DNA of 64,000 nt from Antrihabitans stalactiti (lineage in GTDB: Bacteria; Actinomycetota; Actinomycetes; Mycobacteriales; Mycobacteriaceae), in NCBI RefSeq assembly GCF_012932915.1, contig NZ_VCQU01000009.1, positions 124,001 to 188,000 of the forward strand, in the 5' to 3' direction. The notes below the pieces were generated by a model, which worked only from the letters and a program-made list of their open reading frames with translations, was not told where the DNA came from and did not search any database. Position 1 is the first letter of the stretch; every line of letters begins with the position of its first letter. The translations under genes were made by a program, and so were the position numbers. Of the stretch, positions 2,568 to 31,093 are shown one piece after another.

Positions 2568-3899
2568 CTAGCTACCGAACATGAAGTGCGAAATGGTGTA
2601 GATCGACAGGCCTGCGAGCGAGCCGACGACCGTGCCGTTGATCCGGATGAATTGCAGATCGCGCCCGACCTGCAATTCGATCTTCTTGCTCGCCTCTTCG
2701 GCATCCCAGCGCTCGACCGTGTCGGTGATGATCGTGGTGATTTCGTTCGCGTAGTTGGCGGCGATGTAGCGCGCGCCCGCAAGCAACCACTTGTCGACCT
2801 TGCCCCGCATCTCTGCGTCGTCGCGCAGTCGCTCACCGAGCTGCTGGACGTTGTCGCGAACCTTGTTTCGCAGGGTGCTGTTCGGATCGTCGACGGATTC
2901 GAGGATGAGCCGCTTCGCGACCCGCCAGGTCGCCGCAGCCAGACCCGTAATTTCTTCGCGGCCCATGATCTCGGCTTTGATCGATTCGGCCTTGACGATC
3001 GTCGCCTCGTCGAACTGTAGGTCGCGCGCAAATTCGGTGAGGAAGTTGTTCGCCGCCAACCGCACCTCGTGATCCGGGCGCGTACGGACCTTCCACGTGA
3101 ACTCGACCAGCTCGCGGTAGATCTTCTCCGACAGGAGGATGTCGACGAACTTAGGCGACCACTGCGGTGAATCGCGCAACACGATCCGGTCGATGGTTTC
3201 CTGGCTGCCCAACGCCCACTGATGGGCCCGTTCGGCAAGCATGTCGAGCAACGGGACCTGCCGATTCTCCTTCAGCAGCTCATCGAGGACCTTGCCGATC
3301 GGCGGACCCCATTTCGGCTCGGCGATCTTGCGCACGATCGTGTGATCGATGATTTGCTCGACGTCCTCGTCCCGCAACACGCCGACGATCGCGCGAAGGA
3401 TCGTCGACGTTTCGGCGGCGACACGGTCCGCGTTCTGGGGCACAGCCATCCAGGTGCCGATTCGCAGCGGGACCTGCGCGGACGCGACCTTCGCCGACAC
3501 GACATCGGGGGCGAGAAAGTTCTGGCCGACGAAGTTGCTCAAGCTCTCGCCGAGTTGGTCCTTCTTCTTCTTGATGATCGCGGTATGGGGAATCGGCAAG
3601 CCCAACGGATGCCGGAAGAGTGCAGTGACGGCGAACCAGTCCGCCAACGCACCGACCATTCCCGCCTCCGACGCCGCGCGCACATAGCCGACCCAGCTGC
3701 CTGCGCCGCGAGATTCCTGCCAGCGGCAGAACAGGTAGACGACGCTCGCGAATACGAGAAACCCGGTGGCGACGGCTTTCATCCTGAACAGATCGCGTCG
3801 CTTTTCCTCGTCGGCGAAGCCACCTCCTGGCTGCATTGCGGGCGCAGCCGCCGCTGTCGGGCTTTGCTTCGGCTCGTCGTCGAGCTCAGTTACGGACAC
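2568..3899 (-). CDS. DUF445 membrane-anchored protein (Rv0473-like)
   Basis: About 443 residues. An N-terminal hydrophobic segment (AVATGFLVFASVVYLF) is followed by the DUF445 core with its hallmark region around EAGMVGALADWFAVTALFRH, a long helical middle, and a second hydrophobic stretch at the very C-terminus (GTVVGSLAGLSIYTISHFMF). DUF445 proteins are bacterial membrane proteins of unknown role. The start is uncertain: GTG at 3899 gives about 20 residues before the first conserved part, ATG at 3836 would also work, and neither has a strong ribosome site. It is divergent from a TetR gene, the same pairing as Rv0473/Rv0472c in M. tuberculosis as I recall it. Confidence 0.8.
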   Translation of the reverse strand: MSVTELDDEPKQSPTAAAAPAMQPGGGFADEEKRRDLFRMKAVATGFLVFASVVYLFCRWQESRGAGSWVGYVRAASEAGMVGALADWFAVTALFRHPLGLPIPHTAIIKKKKDQLGESLSNFVGQNFLAPDVVSAKVASAQVPLRIGTWMAVPQNADRVAAETSTILRAIVGVLRDEDVEQIIDHTIVRKIAEPKWGPPIGKVLDELLKENRQVPLLDMLAERAHQWALGSQETIDRIVLRDSPQWSPKFVDILLSEKIYRELVEFTWKVRTRPDHEVRLAANNFLTEFARDLQFDEATIVKAESIKAEIMGREEITGLAAATWRVAKRLILESVDDPNSTLRNKVRDNVQQLGERLRDDAEMRGKVDKWLLAGARYIAANYANEITTIITDTVERWDAEEASKKIELQVGRDLQFIRINGTVVGSLAGLSIYTISHFMFGS

Positions 3900-23210: not shown

Positions 23211-23995
23211 CGCCCACCGCGAACTCCAATAAGAACTCGCGGAATTCCGACGACTACAACAATGTCGGGGCCGCGTTCGAGGAAATCGACGCTCTCCCGG
23301 CCGACGATCCTCGCCGGGCCGCGCTGCGCGACCAACTGGTGGTTCGGTGTCTGCCTCTTGCCGAGCACATCGCTCGACGATTCGACGGCCGTGGCGAACT
23401 ACACGACGACCTCGTCCAAGTAGCCCGTGTCGGCCTGGTCAACGCGGTCGATCGATTCGACGTCAGCCGCGGCTCCGACTTCATCTCGTTTGCTGTGCCC
23501 ACGATCATGGGCGAGGTCCGAAGGCATTTCCGCGACACCGGGTGGGCCGTGCGCGTGCCACGCCGGATGAAGGAGCTCCACCTTGCGCTGAGCAAGACGA
23601 CAAGCGCGTTGTCGCAGCGGCTGGGTAGACCACCCACCGTCAAAGAGCTGTCCGCGGAGCTGGATCTCGACCCCGACGAGGTCAGCCAGGGCTTGGTCGC
23701 CGGTAACGCCTATCAGACCGTCTCGGTCGATACGACGGTCGGCAACCGAGGCGAGGACCTCCCGTTGGTCGAGGTGCTCGGCGATTTCGACTCCGCGCTG
23801 CAGAACGTCGAGGATCACGAAGCATTGCGACCACTGCTCGAGGCGCTCCCCGAGCGCGAGCGGACCGTGCTGCTGTATCGATTCTTCGGCAATCTCACGC
23901 AAACTCAGATCGCCGACAAGTTGGGCATCTCACAGATGCATGTGTCGCGGATTCTCGCGCGCACGCTTGCCCAGTTGCGCGAGAACCTCGAGTAG
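23207..23995 (+). CDS. sigF: RNA polymerase sigma factor SigF (SigB/F/G family)
   Basis: A 262-residue group 3 sigma factor, close to the 261 residues of M. tuberculosis SigF. Region 2 is seen as GELHDDLVQVARVGLVNAVD and FISFAVPTIMGEVRRHFRD, region 3 around SQRLGRPPTVKELSAELD, and region 4 with its HTH at LTQTQIADKLGISQMHVSRI. It lacks region 1, as expected. It directs general stress genes, among them probably the divergent csbD. GTG at 23207 overlaps the rsbW stop. Only 3 bp separate it from the convergent metE-like gene. Confidence 0.92.
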   Translation: MTPTANSNKNSRNSDDYNNVGAAFEEIDALPADDPRRAALRDQLVVRCLPLAEHIARRFDGRGELHDDLVQVARVGLVNAVDRFDVSRGSDFISFAVPTIMGEVRRHFRDTGWAVRVPRRMKELHLALSKTTSALSQRLGRPPTVKELSAELDLDPDEVSQGLVAGNAYQTVSVDTTVGNRGEDLPLVEVLGDFDSALQNVEDHEALRPLLEALPERERTVLLYRFFGNLTQTQIADKLGISQMHVSRILARTLAQLRENLE

Positions 23996-23998
23996 GGG

Positions 23999-26332
23999 CT
24001 ACTGCTCCTGTGCCTTCGCCGCGCGCCGCCGGATACGGCGGGCTGCGGCGACAAGGTTGCGCAACGACGGCTCCAGTTGCCAGCCGTGCCGCGTCTTCAG
24101 CCCGCCGTCAGGGTTCGCCCACAAACGGTCTACGTCGATGGATTCAGCTGCACGAGTGAGCAATTCGTCGAGCTCGTCGATATCGGGAATCCGCGCGGAC
24201 CGACTCTCGTACACACCGGGACCGACGCCACGCGTGAGTCCGGCGCCCTCGGAGACATCGCCCTTGAGAGCCTCGAGGACCCAGTCGATCGAGCGGGTTG
24301 CAACGATTGCCGTGACGTCGGCGTCGAGCTCCTCGATTGCGTCGACCACGATCTGCAAGCCGGAATACCCGATGTGCGTATGTATTTGGGTTTCGGCCTT
24401 GACGCCGGACGTTGCCAGCCGGAACGCACCGACCGCCCACCGCAAGTACTCCTCGCGCCCCTGGTGCCGGAGCGGGAGCAGTTCGCGAATTGCAGGCTCG
24501 TCCACCTGGATGATCTTGACACCGGCGCGTTCGAGATCGACGACCTCGTCTCGGATCGCGAGCGCCACCTGATCCGCTGTATCGAACAACGGCTGATCCT
24601 GCCGGACGAACGATCTCGCCAACATCGTGACCGGACCGGTCACCATGCCTTTGACGGGTTTATCGGTCAGCGACTGGGCGAACGTCGCCCACTCGACCGT
24701 CATCGGCGCCGGACGTGCGACGTCCCCGTAGAGGATCGGCGGTCGCACACAGCGGGACCCGTACACCTGCACCCAGCCGTTATGGGTAAAGGCGAAGCCC
24801 TCCAACAACTCGGCGAAGTACTGGATCATGTCGTTGCGCTCGTGCTCACCGTGCACCAGCACGTCGAGACCGATGTCTTCCTGCAGTCGGATCGTCGCCT
24901 CGATCTCGGCCTTGATGCGGTCGGTGTACTCGTCGTACGCCAACCGGCCCTGCCCTAATTCGTACCGCGCCTGGCGGATCGCGTCGGTCTGCGGGAACGA
25001 CCCCAGAGTCGTTGCAGGGACTAGCGGCAACTGAAGCTTCGCCTGCTGCGCAGCCTTACGCACCTCGTACGGCTCGCGCTCGCGCATCTCCGGCGTGACC
25101 GCGTAGACCCGTTGCCGGACAGCGTGTTTCTGCTTGAAATGCACCGAGGTGGGACGTTTGCGCCACTTGTCCGACGGACCATCGGTCAGCGCTTTGGCCA
25201 GCGAAACGACCTCCGTCGTCTTCTGCTTCGCGAAAGCCAGCCGGTCGGCGACGTTGCCTTCGATCTCGTATTCGACAAGGACGTCGTAGGGCACATGCAG
25301 CAGCGTGCACCCGGTCGATACGACAAGGTCCGGGCAGACCGCAGCGAGCTCATTCAGGTAGGTCAGCGTCACGAAACGGTCTGCGCGCCAGACATTTCGG
25401 CCACTGATAACGCCAGCGTAGAGCCGTTTACGTTTGATACCAGGCACTTTGGCGAGATCGTCGGGCTTGACCCGGTGGGACGCGAGGTCGAGACCGATCG
25501 CTTCGACCTTGGTCTGCGCGAGGATCGTCAACGCCTCCCCGAAGTCGCCGTACGGTCCGGTGACGAGCATTCGCGGGCGCATCGCCGACGTCGAAAGTCG
25601 TTGGTAAGCACGCTCGAACGCGGCCAGCTCTTCGGCTGAGTGATCGCTGGTGAACGACGGTTCGTCCAGCTGAACGCAGGTCGCGCCACGCTTGGCGAGA
25701 ATCTCGAACAGCTCTTCGTAGATCGGCAGCAGTTTGTCGAGCAGGCCGAGCTTGAATGACGCTTCGTCGACCGCACCGCCAGCGGGATTGGCACCTTTCG
25801 GGCCGATCTTGCAGAGCAGCAACAACGACACCGGCCCGAGTACCACCGGCCGAAGTTCGATCCCACGCTCCAACGCACGATCGAACTCGTCGAGCAATGC
25901 CTCAGGGTGCAGCGAGAACTCGGTCGTCTCGTCGAGCTCGGGTTGGCGGTAGTGGTAGTTGGTGCCGAAGAACTTCACCAGTTCCAGCGGCGGAAAGTCC
26001 GGGCGTCCGCGGCACATCGTGAAGTAGAAATCCAGCGGATCGAGGTCAGCCTCAAGGGGTTTGAACCGCGTCGGCACAGCGCCGAACAGCAGCGCGTTGT
26101 CGAGAACATGGTCGTAATAGGAGAAGGTGTTGCCGGGAACTTGAGTGATGCCGGTGGCGGCGAGTTCGCTGAACGCCTGCTCCTGCAGCTCCCGACCGAC
26201 AGCGATGAGCTCTTCTTTGGTCGAGCTGCCGTGCCAGTACGATTCCAGGGCACGCTTGAGTTCTCGATGCGGCCCGATCCTCGGATATCCGAGAACGCTC
26301 GAACCGTATCCCTCGGCCCCTTTACTGGACAT
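23999..26332 (-). CDS. Full-length MetE homologue lacking three zinc ligands
   Basis: A 777-residue protein with both barrels of cobalamin-independent methionine synthase. The N-terminal domain begins LGYPRIGPHRELKRAL; the catalytic barrel has GSFPQT, VHGEHERNDM, YGSRCVRPPI and VDEPAIRE. However, the E. coli zinc ligands His641, Cys643, Glu665 and Cys726 align with His653, Gly655, Val677 and Gly743: HTHMC is HTHIG, IETSRS is IVATRS, and NPDCGLKT is NPDGGLKT. The WSF region is also altered (ARSF for CWSF). As zinc activates homocysteine, normal methionine synthesis is unlikely. It may be a paralogue with a new role. ATG 26332 follows GAGGGAG. No cobalamin riboswitch is seen upstream. Confidence 0.9.
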   Translation of the reverse strand: MSSKGAEGYGSSVLGYPRIGPHRELKRALESYWHGSSTKEELIAVGRELQEQAFSELAATGITQVPGNTFSYYDHVLDNALLFGAVPTRFKPLEADLDPLDFYFTMCRGRPDFPPLELVKFFGTNYHYRQPELDETTEFSLHPEALLDEFDRALERGIELRPVVLGPVSLLLLCKIGPKGANPAGGAVDEASFKLGLLDKLLPIYEELFEILAKRGATCVQLDEPSFTSDHSAEELAAFERAYQRLSTSAMRPRMLVTGPYGDFGEALTILAQTKVEAIGLDLASHRVKPDDLAKVPGIKRKRLYAGVISGRNVWRADRFVTLTYLNELAAVCPDLVVSTGCTLLHVPYDVLVEYEIEGNVADRLAFAKQKTTEVVSLAKALTDGPSDKWRKRPTSVHFKQKHAVRQRVYAVTPEMREREPYEVRKAAQQAKLQLPLVPATTLGSFPQTDAIRQARYELGQGRLAYDEYTDRIKAEIEATIRLQEDIGLDVLVHGEHERNDMIQYFAELLEGFAFTHNGWVQVYGSRCVRPPILYGDVARPAPMTVEWATFAQSLTDKPVKGMVTGPVTMLARSFVRQDQPLFDTADQVALAIRDEVVDLERAGVKIIQVDEPAIRELLPLRHQGREEYLRWAVGAFRLATSGVKAETQIHTHIGYSGLQIVVDAIEELDADVTAIVATRSIDWVLEALKGDVSEGAGLTRGVGPGVYESRSARIPDIDELDELLTRAAESIDVDRLWANPDGGLKTRHGWQLEPSLRNLVAAARRIRRRAAKAQEQ

Positions 26333-26356
26333 CAAGCTCCCTCACAGAGACGAAAA

Positions 26357-26398
26357 AGTGGGTGCACGGTGAGCCTATCGACTCTCCGTGCACCCACT
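26357..26398 (-). terminator. Intrinsic terminator of the aceA-fadB2 unit
   Basis: A 13-bp perfect stem (AGTGGGTGCACGG with CCGTGCACCCACT) and 16-nt loop, followed on the minus strand by TTTTTCG. It lies just after the fadB2 stop and before metE. Confidence 0.8.
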
Positions 26399-26411
26399 CT
26401 TGTGAAGCCCC

Positions 26412-27302
26412 TTATTTCGAACTGCGACCGTTCTTGGCCTCGTAGGTGTAGAAGCCCGCACCGGATTTCTTACCCGTCAAGCCCGCTTCCACCATGCGCA
26501 TGAGGAGCGGCGGAGCCGAGTACAACGGCTCTTTGAACTCCGCATACATGGAGTCGGCGATCGACTTCACAGTATCCAGACCGACGAGGTCGGTCAGTGC
26601 GAGTGGACCCATCGGGTGCGCACAGCCGAGCACCATCGCCTTGTCGACATCGTCCTTGGTGGCAAATCCCGACTCCACCATGCGAATTGCCGACAGCAGG
26701 TACGGCACAAGCAACGCGTTCACGACGAACCCGGACCGGTCCGCCGAGCGAACGACCTGCTTGCCCAGTACATCGCTCGCGAAGGCCTCCGCACGCTCGG
26801 ACACAGCCGTGCTCGTCTTCAACGTGGTCACCAATTCGACCAGCGGCAGTACCGGCACCGGGTTGAAGAAGTGCATACCGATGACGCGGTCCGGCGATTT
26901 GGTCGCGATGCCGAGCTTCATGATCGGAATCGAGGACGTGTTCGACGCCAACACTGCGTTGGGGTCGGTGACGACCTCGTCCAATTCGCGGAAGATCGCG
27001 GTCTTGATCTTCTCGTCCTCGAGAACCGCCTCCACGACGAGCTGTCGATCGGCGAAATCGCCGAGGTCGGACGTGAAGCGCAACCGCCAAGCGGCCTGCT
27101 CCCGCTCCCGCTCGGTGATCTTGCCGCTGCTGACACCGCGGTCGAGCGAGCGCAGAATGCGCGATCGCCCGGCCGCGGCCAGCTCACGGGTCTGCTCGAA
27201 CACCAGCACGTCGATGTGCGCTCGCGCACATACCTCGGCGATCCCGGCGCCCATCTGCCCGGCGCCGATCACGCCGACGCGTTGAATCTTCTCGCTGGTC
27301 AA
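26412..27302 (-). CDS. fadB2: 3-hydroxybutyryl-CoA dehydrogenase
   Basis: A 296-residue 3-hydroxyacyl-CoA dehydrogenase. GAGQMGAGIAEVCA is the NAD-binding loop; ASNTSSIPI and the catalytic His in GMHFFNPVPV are present, followed by the C-terminal dimer domain with LVGLDTVKSI. It oxidises 3-hydroxybutyryl-CoA to acetoacetyl-CoA, or the reverse. TTG at 27302 is taken as the start because AGGAG lies six bases before it. It follows aceA by 55 bp on the same strand, as in M. tuberculosis icl1-fadB2, and shares its terminator. Confidence 0.92.
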   Translation of the reverse strand: MTSEKIQRVGVIGAGQMGAGIAEVCARAHIDVLVFEQTRELAAAGRSRILRSLDRGVSSGKITEREREQAAWRLRFTSDLGDFADRQLVVEAVLEDEKIKTAIFRELDEVVTDPNAVLASNTSSIPIMKLGIATKSPDRVIGMHFFNPVPVLPLVELVTTLKTSTAVSERAEAFASDVLGKQVVRSADRSGFVVNALLVPYLLSAIRMVESGFATKDDVDKAMVLGCAHPMGPLALTDLVGLDTVKSIADSMYAEFKEPLYSAPPLLMRMVEAGLTGKKSGAGFYTYEAKNGRSSK

Positions 27303-27357: not shown

Positions 27358-28650
27358 TTAGTGGAACTGACCCTCTTCGGTGGAGCCCTTCAGCGCCGCC
27401 GTGGAGGTGTCCGGGTCGACCGTGGTGGCAACGGTGTCGAAGTAGCCCGCGCCGACCTCACGCTGGTGCTTGATGGCGGTGAAGCCACGCTCGTCGGCTG
27501 CCTTGAACTCGCGCTCCTGCAGGTCGACGAAGGCCGTCATGCCCTCGCGGGCGTAGCCGTACGCCAGGTCGAACGCGGCGTAGTTGAGCGAGTGGAAGCC
27601 GGCCAGGGTGATGAACTGGAACTTGAAGCCCATCGCGGCGAGCTCACGCTGGAACTTCGCGATGGTCGCGTCGTCCAGGTGGGCCTTCCAGTTGAAGGAC
27701 GGGCTGCAGTTGTAGGAGAGCAGCTGGTCCGGGAACTCGGCCTTGACGCTCTCGGCGAACTTGCGCGCGACCTCGAGGTCCGGCACGCCGGTCTCCATCC
27801 AGATGAGGTCGGCGTAAGGGGCGTAGGCCTTGGCGCGAGCGATGCAGGGCTCGATGCCGTTCTTGATGCCGAAGAAGCCCTCGGCGGTGCGGGTGCCATC
27901 GAGGAACGGCTTGTCACGGTCGTCCACGTCGGTGGTGAGCAGCGTCGCGGCCTCGGCGTCGGTGCGCGCGATGACGACGGTCGGCACGTCGGCGACGTCG
28001 GCAGCCAGGCGAGCCGAGGTCAGCGTGCGGATGTGCTGCTGGGTCGGGATGAGCACCTTGCCACCGAGGTGGCCGCACTTCTTCTCCGACGCGAGCTGGT
28101 CTTCCCAGTGCGTGCCGGCGGCACCGGCGGCGATCATGGCCTTCTGCAGCTCGTAGACGTTCAGCGCGCCACCGAAGCCGGCTTCACCGTCGGCGACGAT
28201 CGGGACAACCCAGTTGTCGACCGACTTGTCGCCCTCGACCTTGGCGATCTCGTCGGCGCGCAGCAGGGCGTTGTTGATGCGGCGAACGACGTTCGGCACC
28301 GAGTTGGCCGGGTAGAGGCTCTGGTCCGGGTAGGTGTGACCCGACAGGTTCGCGTCACCGGCGACCTGCCAGCCCGACAAGTAGATGGCGCGCAGGCCGG
28401 CGCGAACCGCCTGGACAGCCTGGTTACCGGTCAGTGCACCGAGAGCGTGGATGTAGTCGTCTTCTTTGTTGACGCCTTCCCACAGGATTTCGGCGCCACG
28501 ACGGGCGAGGGTGTGCTCTTCGACGACGCTGCCCTGCAGCTTCACGACCTGCTCAGCGCTGTAGGTGCGCGTAATTCCCTTCCAGCGAGGGTTGGTGTCC
28601 CAATCCTGCTGGATCTCGGCAGCTGTCTTCGGGGTGCCGGTGGTCGACAT
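27358..28650 (-). CDS. aceA: Isocitrate lyase
   Basis: A 430-residue isocitrate lyase of the short ICL1 type. The catalytic loop KKCGHLGGK, the [10 protein letters not shown] region and YNCSPSFNW are diagnostic. It splits isocitrate to glyoxylate and succinate, the first step of the glyoxylate shunt needed for growth on acetate and fatty acids. GGAG before ATG 28650 fits. The upstream 400 bp carry RamB-like motifs, and ramB lies 13 kb away in the window. Malate synthase is not in the window. Confidence 0.97.
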
Positions 28651-29074
28651 CTCTGCTCCACATCTATTGGTTGATCAAGCCCGCCGCGGATCGGCAGGCT
28701 TCGCATCTTTGCGAGGCATAACGTGCGTACTGTTTAAGAGTGGCACAGCCGAAAAGTGCCGTCTACCTGTTGCTAATGCCAATCTTGGCTAGCTTTTCAA
28801 AGTCGTTTGCTAAGTTTGCAAATCTGCGCGAAGAGTTCACCTCTCTCCTGCGAGCAATTTTTCCGCCGAAAACCGCGCTGGCCTTGTCGTTTGATCGGCC
28901 CAAGCCGAACGCGCGTACTGCTTGATTCGGTGCGACGATAAGGGGTCGCCACGGTTGTCGACGGGCATAGTGTGGCAACTCTCACAGTTCGCCAGACCGC
29001 CACTCGGCCTCCCCCGGAATTTGGGGTACGCCCTTTCGTTCGTTTGATGCCCGCACAGTGGAATAGTCGGTCGC
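28651..29074. other. Long intergenic region between aceA and the receptor kinase gene
   Basis: A 424-bp region, richer in AT than its surroundings, between divergent genes. It holds RamB-like motifs at 28705-28715 and 28812-28822 and an inverted repeat GCCAA-TC-TTGGC at 28778-28789. I see no convincing gene; short open frames there lack ribosome sites. Confidence 0.6.
28812..28822. promoter_or_regulatory. RamB-like operator upstream of aceA
   Basis: AAGTTTGCAAA closely fits the corynebacterial RamB motif with core TTTGCAAA. A second TTTGC stands 2 bp upstream of it, and a weaker copy ATCTTTGCGAG lies at 28705-28715, nearer to aceA. Confidence 0.55.
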
Positions 29075-31093
29075 GTGGAGAGACAGGAGCACTTCGGCCA
29101 ATTCCGGCTGGAGCGGTTGCTGGGAGCCGGGGGCATGGGCGAGGTCTGGCTGGCCTACGACACCCTCACCGAACGCAATGTCGCGCTCAAAGTGCTGCCG
29201 CCGCATCTCTCGACCGACGAGATCTACCGCCACCGGTTCATGCGCGAAGCGAAGATCGTTGCCGCGCTGCGCGAGCCGCACATCGTCCCGATCCACTCGT
29301 TCGGCGCCATCGACGGCCAGCTGTACATCGACATGGCGCTCATCGAAGGACGCGACCTCGGCACCATTCTGAAAGCAGGCCGACTGACAGTTCCGGTCGC
29401 GGTCGACCTCGTCGCGCAGGCCGCCGACGCGTTGGACAGTGCACACGACGCCGGCCTCGTTCACCGCGACGTCAAGCCGTCGAATCTGTTCGTGACCGAC
29501 CGCAAGGGCTTCGTCTACCTCATCGACTTCGGCATCGCCCAGTCGTTGAGCGAGAATCGGCTGACCTCGACCGGCTGGGCGGTCGGGACCTTGGCGTACA
29601 TGGCACCGGAGCGGTTCAGCGGGGACTTCGACGCCAGCGTCGACATCTATGCACTGGCGTGCGTTCTGCACCATTGCCTCACCGGCGAACCGCCGTTCGG
29701 CGCCTCGACGACGCCCGAACGCCAGATGCACGGGCACCTCACTCAGCCGCCCCCGCCCGCGAGCAAGGTCAACGCCAGCGTCCCACCGGCATTGGACGCC
29801 GTGATCGCGCGCGCGATGGCAAAGAATCCCGCGGACCGCTACCCGAGCGCAGGCGAATTCGGTGACGCAGCGCGGGCGGCGCTCACCTCGCCACTGCCGT
29901 TGTCGGGCTCCTCGAGGGTGCTGAAACCGCCTGCGCCGGTTCTGCAACCACCTGCCTCGCCACCGCCCGTCTCGCAGCCCGTCGGCCAGACGACAAGGGT
30001 CACCCGACCCGGACCGCCGCCACTGCCGCCACAGGCACCACCGCTGTCGTCCACGCGGCCGAACCGCTCACGATTCGTCTTCGGCGCACTCGCGATATTC
30101 GCCGTGCTGGCCATTGCGATCGCGGGGTACCTGTTCGTTGCGCGCGACAAGTCGACCGACACGACTGCCAGCCCCGGGGTCTCTCCCTCTGCGGTGGTCA
30201 CGACCTCGCAATTGCCTGCGCCGCAGCGAACCGGCGTGATCGAGGTCGGCAGCAATCCGATTGCGATAGCTATCGACGCCACGACCGGGACCGCTTACGT
30301 GACCAACGGCGGTAGCGGTTCACTGTCGATCATCGATGTCGCCACCGCAACCGTGCGGTCGACGGTCAAGGTCGGAAAGAGCCCTGCAGGAGTTGCCGTC
30401 GACGCCAAACGTCGGGTCGCCTACGTCGTCGACAACGGCGACAATTCGGTGTCGGTGATCGACACAGCCAGCGCGAGCGTGATCGACACGATCGAGGTCG
30501 GCGGAAACCCCTGGGACGTTGCAATCGACGCAGACTCGGGCGTTGCGTTCGTCGCCAATCAGGACGACGCCACATTGTCGGTCATCGAGAATCGCGCTGT
30601 CGTCTCGACAATCCCAGTCGGCGTCAAACCGATTGTGCCGCTGGTCGATACAGCGAATCACACGCTGTACGTCTCGAACTTGGGCGCCGACACCGTCTCG
30701 GCGATCGACACGGTCACGCGCGCGGTCGTCGCGACGATCAAGGTCGGCGACGAGCCCAATGGCGTGGCGCTGGATCCGGCCAACCACGCGCTGTACATCA
30801 CCAACCGCGCCGCGCACACCGTCTCGGTGATCGACACAGCCACCAAGACCGTGACCGACACGATCTCCGTCGGAACCAAGCCTGTCGCAGTCGCCGTCGA
30901 TTCCGAAGCCCACACCGCGTATGTGTCGAACATCGACTCCGACTCGCTGTCGCTGATCGATACCAGCACTCGCACCGTGACCGACTCACTCCCCACCGCG
31001 AAGCTTCCAGTGGGCGTGGCGGTGGATCCTCGCACGCATTCGATCTACCTGAACAGCTTCGACGCCGGCTCGGTCGAGGTGTTCTCGCGCTGA
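29075..31093 (+). CDS. Receptor Ser/Thr kinase with extracellular YVTN beta-propeller (PknD-like)
   Basis: A 672-residue transmembrane kinase. The kinase domain (residues 9-270) has GAGGMGEVWLA, Lys39, HRDVKPSN with Asp131, DFG 151-153 and APE 177-179. A Pro-rich linker (280-330) leads to one membrane segment (333-356). The extracellular part (387-672) holds seven repeats of about 42 residues with YVTN/NGDNSVSVIDT-like blades, giving a seven-bladed propeller. This parallels mycobacterial PknD, whose propeller is NHL type. It likely senses an extracytoplasmic ligand. Start GTG 29075 has a weak ribosome site. Divergent from aceA. Confidence 0.9.
   Translation: MERQEHFGQFRLERLLGAGGMGEVWLAYDTLTERNVALKVLPPHLSTDEIYRHRFMREAKIVAALREPHIVPIHSFGAIDGQLYIDMALIEGRDLGTILKAGRLTVPVAVDLVAQAADALDSAHDAGLVHRDVKPSNLFVTDRKGFVYLIDFGIAQSLSENRLTSTGWAVGTLAYMAPERFSGDFDASVDIYALACVLHHCLTGEPPFGASTTPERQMHGHLTQPPPPASKVNASVPPALDAVIARAMAKNPADRYPSAGEFGDAARAALTSPLPLSGSSRVLKPPAPVLQPPASPPPVSQPVGQTTRVTRPGPPPLPPQAPPLSSTRPNRSRFVFGALAIFAVLAIAIAGYLFVARDKSTDTTASPGVSPSAVVTTSQLPAPQRTGVIEVGSNPIAIAIDATTGTAYVTNGGSGSLSIIDVATATVRSTVKVGKSPAGVAVDAKRRVAYVVDNGDNSVSVIDTASASVIDTIEVGGNPWDVAIDADSGVAFVANQDDATLSVIENRAVVSTIPVGVKPIVPLVDTANHTLYVSNLGADTVSAIDTVTRAVVATIKVGDEPNGVALDPANHALYITNRAAHTVSVIDTATKTVTDTISVGTKPVAVAVDSEAHTAYVSNIDSDSLSLIDTSTRTVTDSLPTAKLPVGVAVDPRTHSIYLNSFDAGSVEVFSR

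Follow-up and report, generated by a model that had tools for sequence, protein, structure and literature searches.

The methionine synthase MetE (TIGR01371, NF003556; PDB: 1u1h, 1t7l) consists of two (beta/alpha)8 domains and carries a zinc set of His, Cys, Glu and Cys. Its N-terminal barrel is itself a precedent: following duplication it gave up zinc as well as homocysteine, along with the residues that bind the latter, and as part of one and the same enzyme it now serves to bind folate (excerpt of PMC539065). The core methionine synthases MesA, MesB, MesC and MesD are homologous to the C-terminal barrel, with the same head-group residues, and keep a zinc set but have no N-terminal folate domain (excerpt of PMC7857596). 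In the MesB-like proteins of Chloroflexales, which belong to the MetE superfamily and have a single-domain core, the zinc residues are not conserved and FSHG, YCDQ or YREQ stands at the ligand positions, and the authors propose another function for them (same excerpt). These zinc-less proteins are the nearest conceptual precedent for the protein described here, which comes from a different phylum, is of the two-domain folate type and reads H-x-V-G at the ligands; unlike the N-terminal barrel of MetE, its C-terminal barrel keeps the head-group residues. A literature search, with most subscription journals outside its reach, found neither a full-length zinc-free MetE described nor its linkage to icl and fadB2. 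The published traces of the locus are two, namely the proteome of Rhodococcus qingshengii IGTS8 discussed below and the genome paper of Nocardia cyriacigeorgica GUH-2, whose available part lists a metE in the same genomic region as isocitrate lyase and makes no remark about zinc (PMC3751702).

A two-domain MetE paralogue with one zinc ligand left

In the window, a stretch of 64,000 nucleotides from the soil bacterium Antrihabitans stalactiti, the MetE-like gene occupies positions 23999..26332 on the minus strand, with a frame open over 777 codons (777 aa, start ATG at 26332, preceding codon TTG at 26335). Pfam models PF08267 and PF01717 cover both MetE domains full length, which bears out the original prediction of two complete domains in a clean frame and agrees by sequence with the two-domain fold; the PF08267 domain also sets the protein apart from the single-domain MesA-D. 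Arabidopsis MetE (PDB: 1u1h) matches at an E value of 8e-191, and the protein is 50-52% identical to canonical copies of the same genus. Its score against the equivalog model TIGR01371 stays below the cut-off (875.9 versus 929.95 bits), while that of NF003556 is passed. TIGR01371 separated all proteins compared, with five of five zinc-free proteins (named here after the missing ligands) below the cut-off and four of four canonical ones above it, whereas NF003556 calls all nine methionine synthase.

Alignment to 1u1h placed Gly655, Val677 and Gly743 at the Cys, Glu and Cys ligands of MetE, as had been predicted from the letters, so that only the His ligand of the set remains (His653). Residues named in the excerpt of PMC7857596 could be carried over with agreeing spacing: E. 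coli S433, E484, D599, H641, C643 and E665 correspond to residues 445, 496, 611, 653, 655 and 677 of the window protein. The interval from E665 to C726 is longer by five residues in the window protein, and the match of Cys726 rests on the motif NPDxGLKTR. The segment that reads CWSF in E. coli was also correctly described as ARSF. It lies at a position with Trp in 69/69 canonical rows, which by its spacing from R493 is T. maritima Trp539, the pterin-stacking residue (excerpt of PMC539065), and in ARSF the tryptophan stacking on the pterin of folate has been lost. The gap of 3 bp to the convergent sigF is real as well (stop at 23995, next stop at 23999), but sigF adjoins the gene in some relatives only and the gap is incidental; a simple partnership with sigF was rejected, since the two are adjacent only in some genera.

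The assembly of A. stalactiti (6.76 Mb, 26 contigs, completeness 100) was searched for a second metE or a metH, as the original prediction had proposed. The catalytic MetE domain was found at two places, the zinc-free gene and a 334-residue single-domain protein, and no canonical metE was present in the genome. The single-domain protein (L002; G000:C1, 1086547-1087509, minus strand) lies between genes that resemble mnmA and ligA in sequence; by eye, its sequence contains HNC and a TPTCGL motif, with an Asp close to where the Glu ligand would be, and it may keep a His-Cys-Asp-Cys zinc set. MetH was recovered through an activation-domain match in a 1198-codon frame; a disruption of this gene was considered and rejected, the TGA being its natural stop. 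Three congeners (G001-G003) carry both a zinc-free copy at 83-86% identity and a canonical metE at 50-52%. Across the group, the metH activation domain was detected in 59/60 zinc-free genomes tested, including 30/30 with the zinc-free copy only, and the exception (G010) has a canonical metE; in these genomes the zinc-free protein was thus never the sole candidate methionine synthase.

A conserved group within Mycobacteriaceae

To define the group we aligned 213 different sequences, comprising 143 zinc-free rows (140 full-length and three fragments from genomes already in the set), 69 canonical rows and the partial row L230, which was dropped. The named-genome scan retained the best 80 of 147 relatives, all of them zinc-free, from Nocardia, Rhodococcus, Aldersonia, Skermania, Antrihabitans and one metagenome genome. 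The Cys-Glu-Cys ligands were absent in 143/143 zinc-free rows and kept in 69/69 canonical MetE rows. Because the loss recurs in all 143 relatives scored it is more than chance, and a sequencing or lineage accident was rejected. The old Cys643 position holds Gly, Thr, Pro, Ala, Ser, Asn or Glu, the old Glu665 position Val or Ile, and the old Cys726 position Gly, with Phe once.

Residue roles were taken from the excerpts of PMC539065 and PMC7857596 and matched by motif and spacing; the latter names E. coli E484 and D599 as head-group residues. The three amino-acid head-group residues (E. coli S433, E484 and D599; Ser, Glu and Asp) were kept in 143/143 zinc-free rows. The T. maritima counterparts of E. 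coli E484 and D599 are E462 and D577. The folate glutamate-tail residues were kept almost throughout (R23 in 140, K26 in 139, R527 and R530 in 143 of the 143 rows), and the pterin-contacting Glu617 in 136/143. The pterin-stacking Trp was lost in 143/143, with Arg in its place in 135 rows and Phe, Gly or Leu in the others. In 141/143 rows Arg also replaces the candidate acid His (T. maritima H672); Lys104 was changed to Arg in 113. The methyl-folate site largely keeps its tail residues and Glu, but has lost its Trp in every row. By these counts the residues that grip both substrates have stayed, whereas the metal that activates the thiol has been lost, together with two catalytic neighbours. 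The protein is likely not a homocysteine methyltransferase. That neither the stacking Trp nor the candidate acid His is kept weakens the folate reading.

Several residues are new and common to the group: R129, C219, W684 and E709 in 140/140 full-length rows and R711 in 138/140. Substitute zinc ligands were looked for among them. No new Cys or His reached 95% conservation in the C-terminal barrel of the 140 rows; at that level the new Cys and His were C219 and H75 of the folate domain, accompanied by acidic residues. Yet His497, beside Glu496, occurs in 119/140 rows and His653 is invariant, and both could still take part in a metal site, which counts against the explanation that we favour.

The arginines gained at 129, 573 and 711 and the lost stacking Trp raise another possibility, since F420 tails, like those of folate, are poly-gamma-glutamate and the tail residues are kept. 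Folate might have been swapped for another anionic cofactor that carries a poly-gamma-glutamate tail, coenzyme F420 for example, or the extra arginines might bind a CoA- or phosphate-bearing ligand. We consider such a swap improbable: the position pairing with 2-NH2 and N3 of the pterin still holds Glu in 136/143 rows, that of the O4-contacting Lys holds Lys or Arg in 135/143, and Arg can itself stack on a pterin.

For phylogenetic analysis, 38 zinc-free and 47 canonical proteins were chosen from the alignment, and in a quick search without bootstrap each set fell on one side of a branch with an SH-aLRT support of 100. The separate clade foreseen for homologues with the same ligand loss was thus recovered with full support. 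Zinc-free copies were carried by 75 of the 121 family genomes sampled, and 45 of the 75 carry a canonical copy also; the copies were classed by identity (zinc-free at least 61%, canonical at most 53%), except for one partial hit at 61% that is canonical by motif. Three genomes (G024, G027 and G095) each have two canonical metE-like copies besides the zinc-free one. Over 394 genomes of the class, only five of which represent the order's other families, the pattern PDGGLKTR, which sees only one ligand position, gave four matches, confined to two genera of Mycobacteriaceae. An order-wide protein search (249 genomes, E ≤ 1e-235) returned 11 genomes, five of the same family and six of a second family, f3, whose copies are at 54-56% identity; the three inspected of these six are canonical. 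Among 25 genomes across the class, seven had a relative, of which six are canonical and one is the partial L230. Zinc-free copies were accordingly found only in the family Mycobacteriaceae among the genomes sampled.

The dN/dS of the zinc-free gene was 0.017-0.121 over nine genome pairs, a sign of strong purifying selection that, with the open frame, rejects decay or a pseudogene; the predicted selection on the frame was borne out at a dN/dS of 0.02-0.12. The value was lower than that of the canonical paralogue in 8/9 of the same pairs, and among 22 genomes with both copies the zinc-free one was more conserved in 172/231 pairs, although these figures come from stop-to-stop frames, in which upstream residues may inflate the canonical values. 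Selection about equal to that on canonical MetE, or tighter, speaks against a pseudoenzyme, that is, a ligand-binding or regulatory protein such as a methionine or folate sensor for the shunt enzymes. Such a role would fit the loss of the catalytic metal and the candidate acid while the binding residues stay. We nevertheless hold it to be unlikely, as the new invariant pocket residues suggest chemistry and the matching R. qingshengii protein stands in the top ten of the sulfur proteome, which is high for a sensor (excerpt of PMC8557817).

Linkage to icl and fadB2 and regulation apart from canonical metE

Upstream of the zinc-free gene on the same strand lie a gene for a fadB2-like 3-hydroxyacyl-CoA dehydrogenase (26412..27302, minus strand; PF02737 and PF00725) and icl, encoding isocitrate lyase (27358..28650, minus strand; PF00463), with gaps of 55 bp between icl and fadB2 and 79 bp between fadB2 and the MetE paralogue. 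Both were found upstream in the same orientation in 40/40 zinc-free loci of diverse genera, whereas neither was found upstream of canonical metE in the 40 loci with upstream sequence (a 41st, L155, has none, and L007-L009 offer only 1.5 kb). In the named-genome loci, the best 80 of 147 relatives, icl and fadB2 were both present in 74/80, and the other six are on contigs that end near the gene. No other neighbour of the zinc-free gene was as constant. Conversely, icl-fadB2 occurs without it in 13 of the 17 family genomes examined that lack it, so that the shunt does not need the zinc-free gene.

The gap between fadB2 and the MetE paralogue shrinks to 0-13 nt in ten loci, a figure that depends on a simple start-codon rule and is firm only where congeners agree (L120-L124). 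In the window, the 79-nt gap contains a hairpin (26354..26401, minus strand), followed by a T run, that ends 21 nt before the ATG, and folds with an MFE of -44.5 kcal/mol (z = -6.2); a terminator scan for loops of 3-8 nt only did not list it. Among the corresponding gaps of relatives, and those gaps only, 44 of 65 distinct ones of 60-170 nt fold with z ≤ -3. Hairpins of up to 23 bp stand at this place in many genera, with varying sequence and little promoter room behind them. In 11 chosen hairpins 84.5% of cells pair and six pairs change on both sides, but sliding these hairpins by +1 gave equal double changes and a higher covariation score (0.273 versus 0.233), and the covariation is not clear of this control. 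The hairpin is consistent with a partial terminator or processing site on a shared transcript, through which expression of the third gene would be reduced or regulated.

Upstream of icl, the candidate site ATTTGCAAA (28815..28823, minus strand) resembles a site of RamB, an acetate regulator. It occurs once in the window, where 0.20 occurrences are expected by chance and 16/100 shuffles contain at least one, and the form TTTGCAAA was present upstream of icl in 28/111 loci versus 0/111 stretches inside icl. Divergently from icl, a frame at 29075-31093 (plus strand) encodes a serine/threonine kinase fused to a beta-propeller-like repeat domain.

The canonical gene is regulated differently. A cobalamin (B12) riboswitch was detected upstream of canonical metE in 20/22 loci (L127 and L134 being without it) and in 0/16 zinc-free loci, with none in the window, and B12 riboswitch control of the zinc-free gene was rejected on this ground. 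Near one canonical metE locus (L131) a SAM riboswitch match was seen at 2751-2845 (minus strand) besides the cobalamin riboswitch.

Published expression and proposed function

Expression data exist for a protein that probably belongs to this group. In R. qingshengii IGTS8, a 'MetE' (IGTS8_peg5907) with two Cys and seven Met was 190- to 273-fold higher with dibenzothiophene than with sulfate and ranked among the ten most abundant proteins of the sulfur proteome, which the authors read as methionine synthesis under sulfur limitation (excerpt of PMC8557817). In one genus that contains Rhodococcus, 21 of 27 zinc-free proteins have exactly two Cys (range 1-3) and six match two Cys and seven Met, while 20/20 canonical MetE proteins of the same genus have at least four Cys for any start. 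The induction therefore probably concerns the zinc-free paralogue, an assignment based on residue counts in related species rather than on the IGTS8 sequence. The medium contained cyanocobalamin, and dibenzothiophene was supplied at 0.5 mM out of a 100 mM stock in ethanol, with no ethanol mentioned for the sulfate cultures in the part of the methods available (PMC8557817); by arithmetic the dibenzothiophene cultures received 0.5% ethanol. A riboswitch-controlled metE should stay low with cyanocobalamin present. Given this and the ethanol, the induction may reflect the icl gene set instead of methionine synthesis.

These data bear on whether the protein is still a methionine synthase, one that has dispensed with zinc or rebuilt its metal site and that perhaps serves when sulfur or zinc is scarce. 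The head-group and tail residues are kept as such an enzyme would need, the two histidines, His653 and His497, could contribute to a metal site, and the fitting protein rises strongly when dibenzothiophene replaces sulfate. We find this unlikely, however. The pterin-stacking Trp and the candidate acid His have been lost too, the only new Cys and His at 95% conservation lie in the folate domain, besides new acidic residues, and the gene is linked to icl-fadB2 and not to sulfur genes; furthermore, it is accompanied by canonical metE and/or metH, and cyanocobalamin was supplied in the experiment (excerpt of PMC8557817).

An old, conserved zinc-free MetE paralogue tied to glyoxylate-shunt genes is a real finding, grounded in the ligand loss, the head-group and glutamate-tail residues, monophyly, selection, gene linkage and regulation apart from canonical metE. 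It is wider than the original prediction, beyond which lie the family-wide conservation, the icl-fadB2 linkage and the role of the lost Trp in pterin stacking; the prediction's reading of a repurposed paralogue that does not make methionine in the usual way is supported, and the in-silico checks favoured it.

Our preferred explanation, which we think probable from these sequence features, is that this MetE paralogue has neofunctionalised: it would have ceased to be a methionine synthase and would act as a zinc-independent folate/amino-acid enzyme of C2 metabolism. The protein would still bind polyglutamylated folate together with the amino and carboxyl groups of an amino acid, and would not bind the thiol-activating zinc, so that its substrate would have to be other than the homocysteine thiol. 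As a best guess, this zinc-independent folate-amino acid enzyme would transfer one-carbon units between folate and an amino acid other than a thiol, its pocket apparently rebuilt with conserved Arg and Trp residues. From its membership in the icl-fadB2 gene set, it would most likely work on C2 compounds or fatty acids, when the glyoxylate shunt is running. Glyoxylate forms an adduct with tetrahydrofolate, and it is conceivable, as a long shot, that the enzyme handles this adduct or moves a glyoxylate-derived unit to an amino acid, with Arg573 and Arg711 holding the extra carboxylate.

For the family, this means that a protein widespread in Nocardia, Rhodococcus and relatives and automatically named methionine synthase through NF003556, despite apparently lacking the metal for that chemistry, is probably a mislabelled enzyme with a different job. 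Counting it as MetE would lead flux models, proteomics and arguments about vitamin B12 astray, and one published proteome conclusion is probably affected (excerpt of PMC8557817). The paralogue would provide a natural example of how an enzyme with a thiol-activating zinc can take up new chemistry while both substrate grips are kept, and its gene is placed at the glyoxylate shunt, a position that makes its function directly testable. If the glyoxylate-folate reading were true, a MetE scaffold would be carrying out C2 chemistry with folate as the carrier, and the neighbouring isocitrate lyase would supply its substrate.
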